In this document: positions 976 through 38,323 of the stretch, piece by piece | Numbering within the stretch: position 1 is the first letter of the stretch | Layout of the letters: the number at the start of each line of letters is the position of its first letter | Source of the DNA: a virus | Direction: 5' to 3' (one strand) | IMG/VR virus record: IMGVR_UViG_3300036770_003868 | Coordinates: 1-38,323 of that record | Length of the DNA stretch: 38,323 nt | Translations under genes and position numbers: made by a program | The notes under the pieces: generated by a model | What the model was told of the DNA's origin: nothing | What the model saw: the letters and a program-made list of their open reading frames with translations, nothing else | Databases searched by the model: none

Positions 976-1217
976 GCGACACGAGCGAATTATTGGATTT
1001 CGGATGCACGAAGCGCGAGCTTATTGACGCTATCCACGCCGGAGCAAATCGCGCTGACGTGGCGCGCCTTGAAGGCGCCGTGTGGCGGCTATTCGACCGC
1101 GTCAGCGGCCTTCGCTTTTTCATGGACACGAAAGCGGAGCTGTTTGGAGAGGTGGAGCGGCTGCGAACTGAGGTGGAGAGGCTGCGGGCCGAGTTGGGGG
1201 GAAAAGCAAATGGATAA
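972..1217 (+). CDS. Hypothetical coiled-coil protein, 81 aa
   Basis: ATG 972 overlaps the upstream TGA (ATGA). The N-terminal half is a compact helical region. Residues about 55-78 form a coiled coil (EVERLRTEVERLRAELGG) like that of the 57-aa protein at 530. The stop (1215-1217) lies inside the next gene, whose ATG is at 1210, so this gene is translationally linked to the Tas-like gene. It could be a partner of that protein; nothing in the sequence proves this. Confidence 0.7.
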   Translation: MSDTSELLDFGCTKRELIDAIHAGANRADVARLEGAVWRLFDRVSGLRFFMDTKAELFGEVERLRTEVERLRAELGGKANG

Positions 1218-2001
1218 TCTTGAACCAGTAATTCGGCTGTCTCGCGATCTGCGAAACGCCGCTCACACTATGAGCGATGCAGAGGCGCGCTTTCTCGTTG
1301 ATGCATACTATCAGATGCAGGAAGATCGCATTCGCGATGATGGGCAGATCAGGTCAATGAGTGAGGAACCACATGCGGTTCTAGCTTATTTATCCGCGCA
1401 ACATGCAACGCTTGAGACCCAGATCAAGGGCGCGCTTGATCGTTACAGCATGAGCCGCCCGATTGGGATTTGGCTGCGCCAGCACAAAGGAATCGGCCCG
1501 GTTATCGCGGCTGGTCTCATGGCTCACATTGATATTCACAAAGCCCAGACAGCGTCTAACATTTGGCGGTATGCAGGCCTGGACCCGACGAGCAAATGGG
1601 AAAAGGGTCAAAAGCGCCCGTGGAATGCGAGCCTTAAAACCTTGTGCTGGAAGATTGGCGAAAGCTTTGTCAAAGTCTCCGGCATGACCGACGCTTATTA
1701 TGGACAGCTCTATGTTGCGGCTAAAGAGCGGGAGCTTAAGCGCAATGAGGAAGGCGGCAATGCTGCAACTGCGGCTGCGATTTTAGAAGCTAAGAAGTGG
1801 AAGGGCGACACAATAGCGAAGGCGGCGTATGAAAGCGGCAAGCTGCCCCCAGCGCATGTCCACGCCCGCGCGAAGCGGTGGGTCGTGAAACAATTCCTAT
1901 CAGACTTGCATAAGCGATGGCGCGAGCTCGAAGGCTTGCCCGTTGCTGACCCCTATCCCATCGCGCACATGAACCATGCTCATTTGCGGACGGGAACGTA
2001 A
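1210..2001 (+). CDS. tas: TIGR-associated protein, TasA-like (IS110/Nop-type core, no nuclease domain)
   Basis: The protein is 263 residues. Start ATG 1210 follows a GGGGGGAAAA site; an in-frame ATG at 1024 would overlap the upstream gene completely. Residues 85-160 resemble the C-terminal domain of IS110/IS116 transposases: GIGPVIAAGLMAHI at 94-107, YAGLDP at 121-126 and a basic helix NASLKTLCWKIGESF. A helical region precedes it and a basic helical tail follows (HARAKRWVVKQFLSDL, about 218-231), ending PYPIAHMNHAH. The N-terminal DEDD/RuvC catalytic domain of real IS110 transposases is absent, and I see no HNH or RuvC motif. Known: Tas proteins are Nop-domain proteins related to IS110 and to box C/D snoRNP proteins, encoded beside TIGR arrays. 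The array beginning at the stop codon of this gene makes TasA the best call. Expected role: RNA-guided DNA binding without cutting. Alternative: a domesticated transposase fragment with an unrelated repeat. Confidence 0.78.
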   Translation: MDNLEPVIRLSRDLRNAAHTMSDAEARFLVDAYYQMQEDRIRDDGQIRSMSEEPHAVLAYLSAQHATLETQIKGALDRYSMSRPIGIWLRQHKGIGPVIAAGLMAHIDIHKAQTASNIWRYAGLDPTSKWEKGQKRPWNASLKTLCWKIGESFVKVSGMTDAYYGQLYVAAKERELKRNEEGGNAATAAAILEAKKWKGDTIAKAAYESGKLPPAHVHARAKRWVVKQFLSDLHKRWRELEGLPVADPYPIAHMNHAHLRTGT

Positions 2002-2229
2002 GCCAAGAAATCAGAGACACCCATATCCTTCGAGCGAGCCACTCTGTTTGAGACACCCAGAACTAGAGAGCGAGCCACTTTGCTAGAGACACCCAAAGTT
2101 GAAGAGCGAGCCACCATAATAAAGACACCCATGGCGGCGAAGCGAGCCATACTGTCAGAGACACCCATAGCAGGAGAGCGAGCCAAGATTCATGAGACAC
2201 CCAGAAGTTTGGAGCGAGCCAAAGTCGTG
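1996..2229 (+). repeat. TIGR array: alternating 10-bp repeats and 8-bp spacers, period 36 bp
   Basis: Two 10-bp repeats alternate, GAGACACCCA and GAGCGAGCCA, identical at 7 of 10 positions. Each is followed by 8 unique bases. Six full 36-bp units fill 2014-2229 exactly. A degenerate repeat (ACGTAAGCCA, 1996-2005) overlaps the tas stop codon and adds a leading spacer. GAGACACCCA copies start at 2014, 2050, 2086, 2122 (first base A), 2158 and 2194; GAGCGAGCCA copies start at 2032, 2068, 2104, 2140 (first base A), 2176 and 2212. The 13 spacers are agaaatca, tatccttc, ctctgttt, gaactaga, ctttgcta, aagttgaa, ccataata, tggcggcg, tactgtca, tagcagga, agattcat, gaagtttg and aagtcgtg. Known: TIGR arrays are processed to 36-nt tigRNAs carrying two spacers of about 9 nt that pair with opposite DNA strands. 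The period and dual-spacer design match. The transcribed strand is assumed to be that of tas. Confidence 0.85.
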
Positions 2230-2237
2230 ATTGATCA

Positions 2238-2867
2238 ATGGGAATCCCTGCAATGACCCGTTCCCTGCGTGTTCTAGTGGCCTGCGAATATAGCGGGATC
2301 GTGCGCAACGCCTTTCTCGATCGCGGGCACGATGCCTGGTCGTGCGATCTGTTGCCCGCTGAGGATGGTAGTAACAGACATATCCGGGGCGATGTGCGGG
2401 ATATTTTGCACGAAGGTTGGGATATGCTCATTGTCGCGCACCCGCCCTGCACCCGTCTTTGCAATTCGGGTGTTCGGTGGTTATCAAAACCCCCACCGGG
2501 AAAAACCGTTCAGCAAATGCAAGTTGAATTGCAGGCTGGAGCGGAAATGTTTTCCCTTCTTTGGAATGCCCCTATCCCGCATCGGGCAATCGAGAACCCG
2601 GTCATGCACAAGCACGCTAAAGCATTGATCAAAAATTATCAGGAGCCCGCGCAAAGCGTTCAGCCTTGGCAATTCGGACATGGTGAGTGCAAGCGCACCT
2701 GTTTATGGCTGCACGATTTGCCGCCGTTAAAACCGACAAAGATTGTGGAAGGCCGTGACCAGCGCGTTCATCGCATGTCACCGGGTCCGCTAAGATGGAA
2801 AGAGCGTTCACGGTTCTATCCGGGAATTGCCGCCGCGATGGCCGATCAATGGGGTTCGCTACAATGA
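2238..2867 (+). CDS. DNA cytosine-5 methyltransferase-like protein, 209 aa
   Basis: The N-terminus VLVACEYSGIVRNAFLDRG followed by DAWSCDL has the Rossmann-type cofactor motif I of cytosine-5 methyltransferases. HPPCTRLCNSG (about residue 68) carries the Pro-Cys catalytic motif IV. IENP (about 118) sits where the family has motif VI ENV. No separate target-recognition domain is visible, and 209 residues is short for a complete enzyme; similar short proteins are common in phages. ATG 2238 lies 8 bp past the TIGR array; ATG 2253 is an equally possible start. The stop overlaps the next start (ATGA). It may methylate or otherwise modify phage DNA, or be degenerate. Confidence 0.75.
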   Translation: MGIPAMTRSLRVLVACEYSGIVRNAFLDRGHDAWSCDLLPAEDGSNRHIRGDVRDILHEGWDMLIVAHPPCTRLCNSGVRWLSKPPPGKTVQQMQVELQAGAEMFSLLWNAPIPHRAIENPVMHKHAKALIKNYQEPAQSVQPWQFGHGECKRTCLWLHDLPPLKPTKIVEGRDQRVHRMSPGPLRWKERSRFYPGIAAAMADQWGSLQ

Positions 2868-35298: not shown

Positions 35299-35877
35299 AT
35301 GACCACCAAACACGAGACACTCTCCGCCGCGCTGGCCGCCGCTCAGGCGGTCATGCCTACGGTTGTGAAAGACCGCGTCGCCAAAATCGGCCCCGGTCGC
35401 GAGTACCGCTATGCGGACCTTGCAACAATCTTGGCCACCGTCCGCCCTGTCCTGGGCGCGCACGGGCTGGCGCTGACCCAACGGACGCAGATCCGGGGCG
35501 ATGCTATCGTCCTGCTGACCGAGCTGCGCCACGCCAGCGGCGAGGTGCTCGACTCAGAGTATCCGGTCGCCGCGATCGGGGCGCGGCATCAGGACATGGG
35601 CGGCGCCCTTACCTACGCCCGCCGATATGCGCTCTGCGGCCTGATTGGCATTGCCGCCGACGAGGATGATGACGGGGCGACGGCCCCTGCCCCTGTGCCG
35701 GTTCGTGAACCTGCGATCTCTGCCGACCAAGCGCTGGAAATCAATGACATGCTGACCGAGTTGGGCGCAAACCGCGCTGCGTTCCTTAAGTGGGCGCAGG
35801 CGGATAGCGTCGAGCAGATCCCGGCCCGTAAATATGAGGCCGTTCGGAACAAGCTGTCAGCCAAGCGGGGGGCATAA
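35299..35877 (+). CDS. erf: ERF-type single-strand annealing protein, 192 aa
   Basis: YRYADLATILATVRPVLGAH, GLALTQRT and DMGGALTYARRYALCGLIGI are the conserved core of the ERF superfamily, followed by an acidic DEDDD stretch and a C-terminal helical region (NRAAFLKWAQADSVEQIPAR). A GGAAAGGGAAG site precedes ATG 35299. The protein anneals complementary single strands in phage recombination and probably works with the exonuclease at 37725. Three pentapeptide-repeat genes are inserted between the pair. The stop overlaps the next ATG (TAATG). Confidence 0.92.
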   Translation: MTTKHETLSAALAAAQAVMPTVVKDRVAKIGPGREYRYADLATILATVRPVLGAHGLALTQRTQIRGDAIVLLTELRHASGEVLDSEYPVAAIGARHQDMGGALTYARRYALCGLIGIAADEDDDGATAPAPVPVREPAISADQALEINDMLTELGANRAAFLKWAQADSVEQIPARKYEAVRNKLSAKRGA

Positions 35878-36521
35878 TGCCGGTTGAAATCAAACACCGT
35901 GATACGGGCGCGGTTCTGCACACCGTCCAGGCCGACACGCTACGCGGGGCGGACCTGAACGGAACGGACCTAGGCGGGGCGGACCTGAGCTGGGCGGACC
36001 TGAGCGGGGCGAACCTGCTTGGGGCAAACCTGGGCGGAACGGACCTGAGCGGGGCAAACCTGAGCGGGGCGGACTTGCGCAGTGCGAATTTAAACCGTGC
36101 CCTTTTGAGCAACGCGGATTTGCGCGGGGCGGACCTGCGCGGGGTAAATTTGCGCGAAGCGTACTTGTACGGGGCAAACTTGTGCAGGGCGGATTTGCGC
36201 GGGGCGGACCTGCGCGGGGTAAATTTGCGCGAAGCGTACTTGTACGGGGCGGACTTGCACCGGGCGGACCTAGGCGGGGCGGTTATTAACGCCGACAAGC
36301 TTGATCGTCTATTGGCCCGCGCTACGCGGGTCAGCGATGGTCACGAGTTTTTCCTCTTCGCGCTCCAAGACGGCCCACCGAAAATCAAAGCCGGATGCCG
36401 TTGGCTGACGATTGACGATTACCGCGCCCATATCGACGCTAATTATTCCGATACGGCCAAGGCGTCGGAAACTTTAGACATTCTAAGATATTTTGAATTG
36501 CGCGGCGCCGGGAGGGCGTGA
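35877..36521 (+). CDS. Pentapeptide-repeat protein 1, 214 aa
   Basis: A short N-terminal part (MPVEIKHRDTGAVLHTVQAD) is followed by about 23 tandem pentapeptides of the A(D/N)LXX type, which fold into a right-handed four-sided beta helix. A 75-residue C-terminal domain follows (RATRVSDGHEFFLFALQDG, then AGCRWLTIDDYRAHI), shared with the two genes downstream. Known: some pentapeptide proteins (Qnr, MfpA) mimic DNA and bind gyrase. Here the gene lies between ERF and exonuclease, so a role in recombination or topology is plausible but unproven. Overlaps on both sides suggest coupled translation. Confidence 0.85.
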   Translation: MPVEIKHRDTGAVLHTVQADTLRGADLNGTDLGGADLSWADLSGANLLGANLGGTDLSGANLSGADLRSANLNRALLSNADLRGADLRGVNLREAYLYGANLCRADLRGADLRGVNLREAYLYGADLHRADLGGAVINADKLDRLLARATRVSDGHEFFLFALQDGPPKIKAGCRWLTIDDYRAHIDANYSDTAKASETLDILRYFELRGAGRA

Positions 36522-37219
36522 TGCCAATTAAAATCAAACACCGTTTCACGGGCGCGGTCTTGCACACCGTCCAAGCCGACACGCTACTTAGAGCAAACTT
36601 GAGCGGGGCGAACCTGTACGGGGCGGACCTGCTCGGGGCGGACCTGCGCGGAGCGAACCTGTACGGGGCGGACCTGAGCTGGGCGGACCTGGGCGGGGCG
36701 AGCCTGAGCTGGGCAAACCTGAGCGGAGCAAACTTAGGCAGTGCAAACTTAAACCGTGCCCTTTTGAGCAGAGCGCGCTTAGACGGAGTGAAACTAAACG
36801 GATCGAACATGCTCGGGGCGGACCTGAGCAGGGTAAATTTGCGCGAAGCGTACCTGCACGGGGCAAACTTGTGCAGGGCAAACCTGCGCGAAGCGGATTT
36901 GCGCGGGGCGGACCTTGGCGGAGTAAACATAAACGGGGCGGATCTGCACGGGGCGTATCTGAGCGGGGCGGTTATCAACGCTGACAAGCTCGACCGGCTA
37001 TTGGCCCGCGCCACGCGGGTCAGCGATGGTCACGAGTTCTTCCTCTTCGCGCTCCAAGACGGCCCGCCAAAGGTCAAAGCCGGCTGCCGCTGGATGACGA
37101 TTGCCGATTACCGCGCTCACGTCGCCGCTAATTATTCCGATACGGACAAGGCAACGGAAACTTTAGACATTCTGACATATTTTGAATTACGCGGCGCAGG
37201 GGGACGTGATGCCAGTTGA
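36521..37219 (+). CDS. Pentapeptide-repeat protein 2, 232 aa
   Basis: ATG 36521 (MPIKIKHRFTG) overlaps the previous TGA (TGATG); GTG 36518 is one codon upstream. About 26 pentapeptides follow, some irregular (ARLDG VKLNG SNMLG). The C-terminal domain is nearly the same as in copy 1 (VSDGHEFFLFALQDGPPK). The gene arose by tandem duplication and has the longest helix of the three. The next ATG is inside its last codons (11-nt overlap). Confidence 0.85.
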   Translation: MPIKIKHRFTGAVLHTVQADTLLRANLSGANLYGADLLGADLRGANLYGADLSWADLGGASLSWANLSGANLGSANLNRALLSRARLDGVKLNGSNMLGADLSRVNLREAYLHGANLCRANLREADLRGADLGGVNINGADLHGAYLSGAVINADKLDRLLARATRVSDGHEFFLFALQDGPPKVKAGCRWMTIADYRAHVAANYSDTDKATETLDILTYFELRGAGGRDAS

Positions 37220-37694
37220 AATCAAAAACTTTACGGGCGCGGCCTTACATATTGTTGAGGCCGACACGCTACGCGGGGCGGACCTGAACGGAACGGACCT
37301 AGGCGGGGCGGACCTGCGCGGGGCAAATCTGCGCGGGGCGGACCTGAGCCGGGCCGACCTGTGGGGGGCGGACCTGAGCGGGGCAAATTTGGGCGGGGCG
37401 GACCTGAGCGGGGCAAATTTGGGCGGGGCGGACCTGACCAGAGCGAATCTAACCGGGGCAGTTATCAACGCCGACAAGCTTGACCGGTTACTGGCCCGCG
37501 CTACGCGCGTTATAGACGGTCATGATTTTTTCCTCTTTGCGCTTCAGGACGGTCTGCCAAAGATCAAAGCCGGCTGCCGCTGGATGACCATCGCCGAGTA
37601 CCGGGCCCATGTTGCCGCTAAGTATCCCGAGACAGACAAGGCGCGGGAAACGCTGAACATTCTTAATTATTTCGAGGCTTGCACATATGGCTAA
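37209..37694 (+). CDS. Pentapeptide-repeat protein 3, 161 aa
   Basis: ATG 37209 (MPVEIKNFTG) matches the starts of the other two copies; an upstream ATG at 37182 is inside copy 2. Only about 13 pentapeptides are present, so this copy has roughly half the helix length. The C-terminal domain is conserved (VIDGHDFFLFALQDGLPK, AGCRWMTIAEYRAHV) and ends YFEACTYG. The difference in repeat number points to recombination inside the 15-bp GGGGCGGACCTG-type DNA repeats. Confidence 0.85.
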   Translation: MPVEIKNFTGAALHIVEADTLRGADLNGTDLGGADLRGANLRGADLSRADLWGADLSGANLGGADLSGANLGGADLTRANLTGAVINADKLDRLLARATRVIDGHDFFLFALQDGLPKIKAGCRWMTIAEYRAHVAAKYPETDKARETLNILNYFEACTYG

Positions 37695-37724
37695 TGCTAA
37701 CGCTTATTATTGCGAGGCTTGCAT

Positions 37725-38323
37725 ATGAGTGACCTGACAACGCTCGTCCAGGGCTCACCGGAATGGCTGCACGCCCGCCTGGGCAAAGTCACCGCCTCCC
37801 GCGTGGCCGATATCGTAGCGCGCACAAAGACAGGATTTAGCGCCTCTCGCGCTACCTACCGCGCCCAGCTTGTGTGCGAGCGGCTGACTGGCTTGCCGCA
37901 AGATAGCTTTTCCAATGCCGCCATGGACTGGGGGCGTGAGCAGGAGGCTAACGCCCGCGCCGCCTACGAATTTGAGACAAGCCGCACCGTCGATCTGGTC
38001 GGCTTTGTGCAACATCCCTCTTATACCATGGCAGGCGCATCCCCGGACGGCCTCATCGGCCAGGACGGGCTCATCGAGATCAAGTGCCCGGCCACGGCAA
38101 CGCACATCGAGACGTTGTTGGGGAAAGCCGTGCCTGGTCGATATGTGGCGCAGATGCAATGGCAAATGGCCTGTACTGGCCGGGCGTGGTGCGACTTTGT
38201 CTCATACGATCCGCGCCTGCCTGGACACCTTCAGCTCGCCATTTACCGGATGGAAAGGGATCCCGCGCATATTGAGGATCTCAATCGCGCCGTGGGCGAG
38301 TTCCTCGCCGAGGTGGAGAGTAT
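37725..38323 (+). CDS. YqaJ/lambda-type exonuclease, 5' part (continues at 1-152)
   Basis: ATG 37725; GAGG is 8 nt upstream. Motifs of the YqaJ/lambda exonuclease (PD-(D/E)XK) family appear in order: GSPEWLHARLGKVTASRVAD, WGREQEANARAAYEF, ASPDGLIGQDGLIEIKCP (catalytic D and E-x-K), and YVAQMQWQMACTGRAW (the Q motif). The full length across the junction is 207 residues. It resects double-stranded ends so that ERF can anneal the exposed strand. The window end interrupts the gene only because the circle was cut here. Confidence 0.92.
   Translation, partial: MSDLTTLVQGSPEWLHARLGKVTASRVADIVARTKTGFSASRATYRAQLVCERLTGLPQDSFSNAAMDWGREQEANARAAYEFETSRTVDLVGFVQHPSYTMAGASPDGLIGQDGLIEIKCPATATHIETLLGKAVPGRYVAQMQWQMACTGRAWCDFVSYDPRLPGHLQLAIYRMERDPAHIEDLNRAVGEFLAEVES
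38197..38323. repeat. Terminal direct repeat, right copy
   Basis: Identical over 127 bases to 1-127 and in the same reading frame of the exonuclease. See the left copy; it should be counted once when the genome is closed. Confidence 0.95.

Follow-up and report, generated by a model that had tools for sequence, protein, structure and literature searches.

What would a phage do with an RNA-guided DNA-binding protein that has no nuclease? The question is raised by a locus in the IMG/VR virus record IMGVR_UViG_3300036770_003868, which we analyzed over its whole length of 38,323 nucleotides (referred to here as the window). The locus comprises tasA, a gene for a nuclease-free Nop-type Tas protein, and an array of six short guide units that starts at the stop codon of the gene. 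To our knowledge, the TIGR-Tas systems published in 2025 have no known natural target, and the nuclease-free TasA has no known role. The window contributes a whole phage genome and, in it, a compact TasA locus that is authentic, well-formed and ordinary in kind, but that belongs to a clade offering a testable guide-target pair. This pair, found in a culturable lysogen, is a first testable clue to the purpose of TasA. Our best overall explanation, which we consider probable, is a phage-borne TIGR-TasA system that would bind, and not cut, the DNA chosen by its guides, most likely that of mobile elements.

The tasA gene and its guide array

A reading made from the letters alone (the sequence-only reading) had proposed a 263-residue protein with an IS110 C-terminal/Nop-like core and no DEDD, RuvC or HNH nuclease, and had placed it in the TasA type of TIGR-Tas. 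Our results agree on each of these points. The tasA open reading frame (1210..2001, + strand) encodes 263 amino acids, and its product found its best PDB sequence matches by phmmer in TaTasR (9mty, E 3.5e-16) and SpTasH (21kl and others, E 1e-14). The structure prediction suggested by the same reading pointed the same way: the AlphaFold (AF2) model (pLDDT 83, pTM 0.82) is all-helical from residue 4, and its top 11 Foldseek matches were all TasR or TasH (E 2e-8 to 1e-7), with IS110-family recombinases ranking lower at E about 1e-3. The sole Pfam match was Transposase_20, the IS110 C-terminal family (E 3.5e-5), and PHROGs gave an end-to-end match to phrog_4285 (E 1.8e-55), a family annotated as “transposase” (integration and excision). 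With such labels in both databases, genes of this type escape notice, and other members of phrog_4285 may be misnamed Tas proteins. No HNH, RuvC or DEDD nuclease domain was found in the Pfam search or in the all-helical model, and the protein was assigned to the TasA subtype on this basis. It adds a new member to a family already published and is not of a new kind (Faure et al. 2025, PMC12045711).

The array had likewise been described correctly as starting at the gene's own stop codon, with two 10-bp repeats, 8-bp spacers and a 36-bp period. An edge repeat (GAGCGAGCCA) alternates with a loop repeat (GAGACACCCA), all spacers are 8 nt long and the 36-bp period is exact over six tigRNA units, the loop repeats starting at 2014, 2050, 2086, 2122, 2158 and 2194 and the edge repeats at 2032, 2068, 2104, 2140, 2176 and 2212. 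Self-identity at lag 36 is 0.67, whereas 2000 shuffles reached at most 0.41 at any lag, and the same array was recovered by Tandem Repeats Finder (TRF). The only deviation is a G to A change at position 1 in both repeats of unit 4 (loop at 2122, AAGACACCCA; edge at 2140, AAGCGAGCCA). Both repeats carry box motifs at their two ends, beginning with GAG (AAG in the unit 4 pair) and ending with CCA.

The array opens on the + strand with a 5'-truncated edge repeat, AAGCCA (2000..2005), that overlaps the tasA stop codon TAA (1999-2001); a truncated first edge repeat has been described for TIGR arrays (PMC12045711). The first tigRNA (2006..2031) consists of spacer A AGAAATCA, the loop GAGACACCCA (2014-2023) and spacer B TATCCTTC. 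Each of the next five is preceded by its edge repeat, all on the + strand: tigRNA 2 with CTCTGTTT/GAACTAGA (2032..2067), tigRNA 3 with CTTTGCTA/AAGTTGAA (2068..2103), tigRNA 4 with CCATAATA/TGGCGGCG around the variant loop AAGACACCCA (2104..2139), tigRNA 5 with TACTGTCA/TAGCAGGA behind the variant edge AAGCGAGCCA (2140..2175) and tigRNA 6 with AGATTCAT/GAAGTTTG (2176..2211). A full-length edge repeat (2212..2221, + strand) closes the array. The interval first proposed for the locus, 1210-2229, thus contains a real gene and a real array, but the six full units span 2000-2221, and 2222-2229 is a would-be spacer without a following loop. TIGR arrays typically, if not universally, end with a truncated edge repeat and then a rho-independent terminator (PMC12045711). 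The window array departs from this arrangement, as its last edge is complete, no terminator-like site was found downstream of it on the + strand, and it sits within a gene operon; such a site does follow the array in two relatives (L005 and L012).

Searches of viral and genome contigs returned more than 100 related loci before duplicates were removed. The sequence-only reading had suggested looking for other phages in which a tas gene is followed by 18-bp-spaced repeats, and at least 81 distinct loci with equivalent arrays (five or more parsed units beside tas) were obtained after this removal. The nearest relative, L016, shares 82% protein identity, the gene order and both repeats with the window, and none of its spacers; pN 0.13 and pS 0.82 between the two indicate purifying selection on the TasA protein. 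No Tas was found in plasmid records. The cultured actinobacterial phages Peregrin (Rhodococcus, L014) and Morrissey (Gordonia, L015) encode Tas homologues without a dual-repeat array beside the gene and could be of the stem-loop array type. Two TasA variants (L010 and L011) have an insertion of ~56 residues midway through the Nop-like core, and their genes are flanked on both sides by long arrays. From the protein and its array, we are nearly certain that the window holds a genuine phage-borne TIGR-TasA system, in both its Tas family membership and its binding mode.

A candidate target and the turnover of guides

Target sites were searched in the form [A][gap][rcB] on one strand, where rcB is the reverse complement of spacer B; this orientation is our own derivation, adopted because the published cut geometry (8-nt 3' overhangs) fits it. 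The candidate pair comes from Acidobacteriaceae bacterium KBS 96, a culturable soil bacterium whose TasA prophage has six guides and encodes terminase, portal, capsid, tail fibre and integrase. Guide 2 (TAAAAGCA/TTCGATTC) matches the 6.7-Mb genome exactly at a single site (16/16, no gap, 6,329,962-6,329,977), which spans codons 9-14 of a short gene whose product has an HTH_17/excisionase (AlpA-like) domain. The match of guide 5 (CTCCAGGT/ACTTACAA) is 14/16, likewise without a gap, and lies 0.9 kb from the first, at about 6,329,052, in the adjacent gene of the same strand; its two mismatches are at positions 1-2 of spacer A, at the spacer edge, and spacer B is perfect.

Both sites lie within one element of ~10.2 kb (L656:1952-12132; chromosome about 6,321,951-6,332,131) that is bounded by direct (att) repeats at a tRNA-Glu gene and encodes an integrase, an XRE regulator, the excisionase-like gene, TerS, an HK97 capsid and a prohead protease. 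Capsid-forming satellites similar to phage-inducible chromosomal islands (PICI-like) were recognized by an integrase, a divergent regulator, alpA/xis, rep, terS, a capsid of their own and att repeats, together with the absence of large terminase, portal and tail genes. The search of the KBS 96 element for large terminase, portal or tail genes found none, its presumed rep gene had no family match, and by its gene content the element resembles such a satellite. Another copy of the direct repeat, ~2.6 kb further left, is a hint that elements may lie there in tandem. AlpA is the activator of Gram-negative satellites (PMC6092414); we infer that the excisionase-like gene is its equivalent, and blocking the start of this gene would then silence the element. 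The two matches together are rarer than the exact match alone: among shuffled guide sets, 0.3% of trials had two guides that matched the element with at most two mismatches, and 0/4000 sets had an exact match. These statistics are post hoc because the element was chosen after the match had been seen. When the 1884 guides from all loci were compared with the first 13 kb of that KBS 96 stretch, the sole exact match was the co-resident prophage's own. The pair suggests that TasA may silence rival mobile elements, and we regard it as a strong lead short of proof.

Targets were also sought with other guides. Within the window phage, the best matches of the true guide pairs equal those of permuted pairs. 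The 1416 guides of 80+ phages, compared with 1.3 Mb of tas-flanking DNA from 100 relatives, gave exact and one-mismatch matches equal to the permuted null in both orientations and at all gaps; an apparent gap-1 excess for reversed sites came down to 54 distinct guides, compared with 35-46 in permutations. Over IMG/VR, each of the six window guides had 39-120 or more exact matches, roughly as many as chance would give for 16 specified bases, and no stretch was matched by two of them. Two matched records of 40,637 bp each proved unrelated. At gap 0, the sequence of window guide 6 (AGATTCATCAAACTTC) is found repeatedly in AT-rich phages (L536-L655), within a conserved coding stretch (DDRFIKLP), probably by chance. 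In Propionivibrio, one degenerate pattern covering two guides had no match. The targets that the sequence-only reading had put forward fared differently: a switch of the phage's own is unsupported, while rival mobile elements have gained a candidate example in a relative.

The guides themselves turn over in a distinctive manner. Between sister phages with genomes ~87% identical, some units are common and in the same order, and others are replaced at interior positions. This interior gain and loss, as opposed to the one-ended growth of CRISPR arrays, was seen in several groups (L068/L070/L073/L074, L020-L023 and L078/L084/L088). In the retained units, spacers differ at a few percent of sites, compared with up to 33% of tas synonymous sites (e.g. 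L088-L089 and L060-L069), a change ~10x slower, although recombinational exchange could also keep units alike and strongly diverged units went uncounted. Because these spacers change far less than the synonymous sites, their slow change implies that selection may keep particular guides. Spacers are AT-richer than their own phage in 74 of the 81 loci (mean GC 48% versus 55%), and in the window they have 38.5% GC against 57.8% for the genome. Across the 81 loci, position 1 of the spacers shows a preference for A/T, and the positions behind it for purines. An every-third-base pattern in one guide family had been read as the wobble of a coding target, but no 3-base periodicity was found over all families.

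Possible purposes of TasA

A working model can be drawn up in which tigRNA processing, the protein dimer and dual-strand pairing are taken from published work on relatives (PMC12045711). The tasA gene and the array would be transcribed with the phage early operon, and by analogy with those relatives the array would be cut into 36-nt tigRNAs, each with the loop repeat between spacers A and B. One tigRNA would be bound by a symmetric TasA dimer, which would open DNA at a site of the form [A][0-2 nt][reverse complement of B], the two spacers pairing with opposite strands. Having no nuclease, TasA would stay bound and bend the DNA, presumably blocking transcription or replication. Its likeliest purpose would be the silencing of other mobile elements in the same host, such as rival prophages and satellites, and not of the phage's own genes; we favor this purpose slightly over all others together. 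More tentative is the proposal that a helper phage uses TasA as an RNA-guided silencer of satellites and rival prophages, with short split guides directed, as in KBS 96, against excision/activation and replication genes of those parasites and a list refreshed unit by unit. If true, a phage would be turning RNA-guided DNA binding against its own parasites, TIGR-TasA would have its first natural target and biological role, and the guides of the window phage would be a list of rivals not yet sequenced.

Several observations weigh against mobile-element silencing. The exact KBS 96 match is weak when taken alone, as 0.056 such matches are expected for six guides over the genome, and one chance match arose in 20 guide-by-foreign-genome tests (KBS 96 guide 4, exact, gap 1, in an unrelated Propionivibrio genome, G003:C124:10573-10589). 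The result was not replicated in Halomonas NO4, the one further lysogen searched, where no convincing target was found in the 2.37 Mb examined; one exact match there, of a GC-rich guide with 36 two-mismatch matches, fell inside a transporter-like open reading frame and was judged to be chance. The six guides of the window phage have no identified target in its own genome or among the IMG/VR exact matches. Finally, in E. coli the published TasR protected against neither phage nor conjugation (PMC12045711).

Could the guides instead control genes of the host, switching off its functions or its defence genes? That they do not target the phage itself agrees with this, and AT-rich spacers such as those of the window would fit promoter or intergenic targets. 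However, the sole exact own-genome match in KBS 96 falls within a mobile element that has integrated there, the 2.37 Mb of Halomonas NO4 gave no conspicuous host-gene match, and the fast turnover of spacers between close relatives is unlike the regulation of a conserved host gene; we consider host regulation unlikely. A role on the DNA of the phage itself, in which RNA would guide TasA to assist recombination, packaging or the lysis/lysogeny switch by bending DNA for an integrase, appears more doubtful still. A YqaJ exonuclease and an ERF annealing protein are among the neighbours of tasA, and an integrase-helper role was raised by the published authors (PMC12045711), but against the phage genome the guides do no better than permuted pairs, the tas-flanking DNA of the 100 relatives shows no enrichment of matches, and the window proteins that were scanned include no integrase. 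As for an IS110-type transposase remnant beside an unrelated tandem array, the Pfam and PHROGs labels would suggest it, but the results refute it: the DEDD domain was not found, Tas matches beat IS110 by both fold and sequence, and the gene-array pairing is kept over dozens of phages with the protein under purifying selection.

Known systems and the phage genome

The window locus is closest in kind to the published TasA TIGR systems (Faure et al. 2025, PMC12045711; FpTIGR of Flavonifractor plautii), which are also phage-located and combine a solo Nop-domain protein without nuclease with alternating edge and loop repeats and two spacers per 36-nt unit. It differs from them in its spacers of 8 nt instead of the usual 9, its repeats beginning with GA and not UG, and the array end described above. 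SpTIGR-TasH of Salicola phage CGphi29 (HQ634153; PDB 21kl and 9w04) shares the 36-bp period, the 8-nt spacers, a related Nop domain and a nearly identical edge repeat (AAGCGAGCCA), but has an N-terminal HNH nuclease that TasA lacks. TaTasR (9mty) has a homologous Nop core, a dual-repeat array and a CCA box at the repeat ends, and differs by an active RuvC domain, 9-nt spacers and a UG box. The RNA-binding domain of the IS110-family bridge-RNA recombinases (IS621 and ISCro4) is distantly similar to TasA by Foldseek, but these enzymes combine a DEDD catalytic domain with a single bridge RNA, and the window locus has neither. Type IV and V-M CRISPR systems compare only in how they work, being borne by mobile elements and binding without cutting; TasA has no Cas homology, no protospacer-adjacent motif (PAM) and split guide pairing with both strands. 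CRISPR-Cas repeats are 25-36 nt long and accompanied by cas genes, whereas the window repeats measure 10 nt and no Cas domain was found in tasA or in the window proteins scanned.

The two ends of the record share a 127-bp direct repeat, leaving 38,196 bp of unique sequence and indicating a circular genome. Terminase, portal, capsid, endolysin and recombination genes were present among the proteins scanned, and on this gene content the window is a podovirus-like tailed phage of ~38.2 kb. Its terminase is nearest to those of a Bradyrhizobium prophage and EBPR podovirus 2. Upstream of tasA, the YqaJ/RecE-like exonuclease gene (+ strand) runs from 37710 to 38322 and continues at 1-151 via the terminal repeat across the circular junction; the syntenic relative L016 also has it upstream of tas. 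The next gene after the array encodes a phrog_757 DNA methyltransferase-like protein (2238..2867, + strand), a neighbour whose membership in the system is not implied. Between the ERF and exonuclease genes (35877-37694), three consecutive genes built of repeated 15-bp units encode pentapeptide-repeat-like proteins, and the long antisense open reading frames over the same region are a by-product of the 15-bp repeat.
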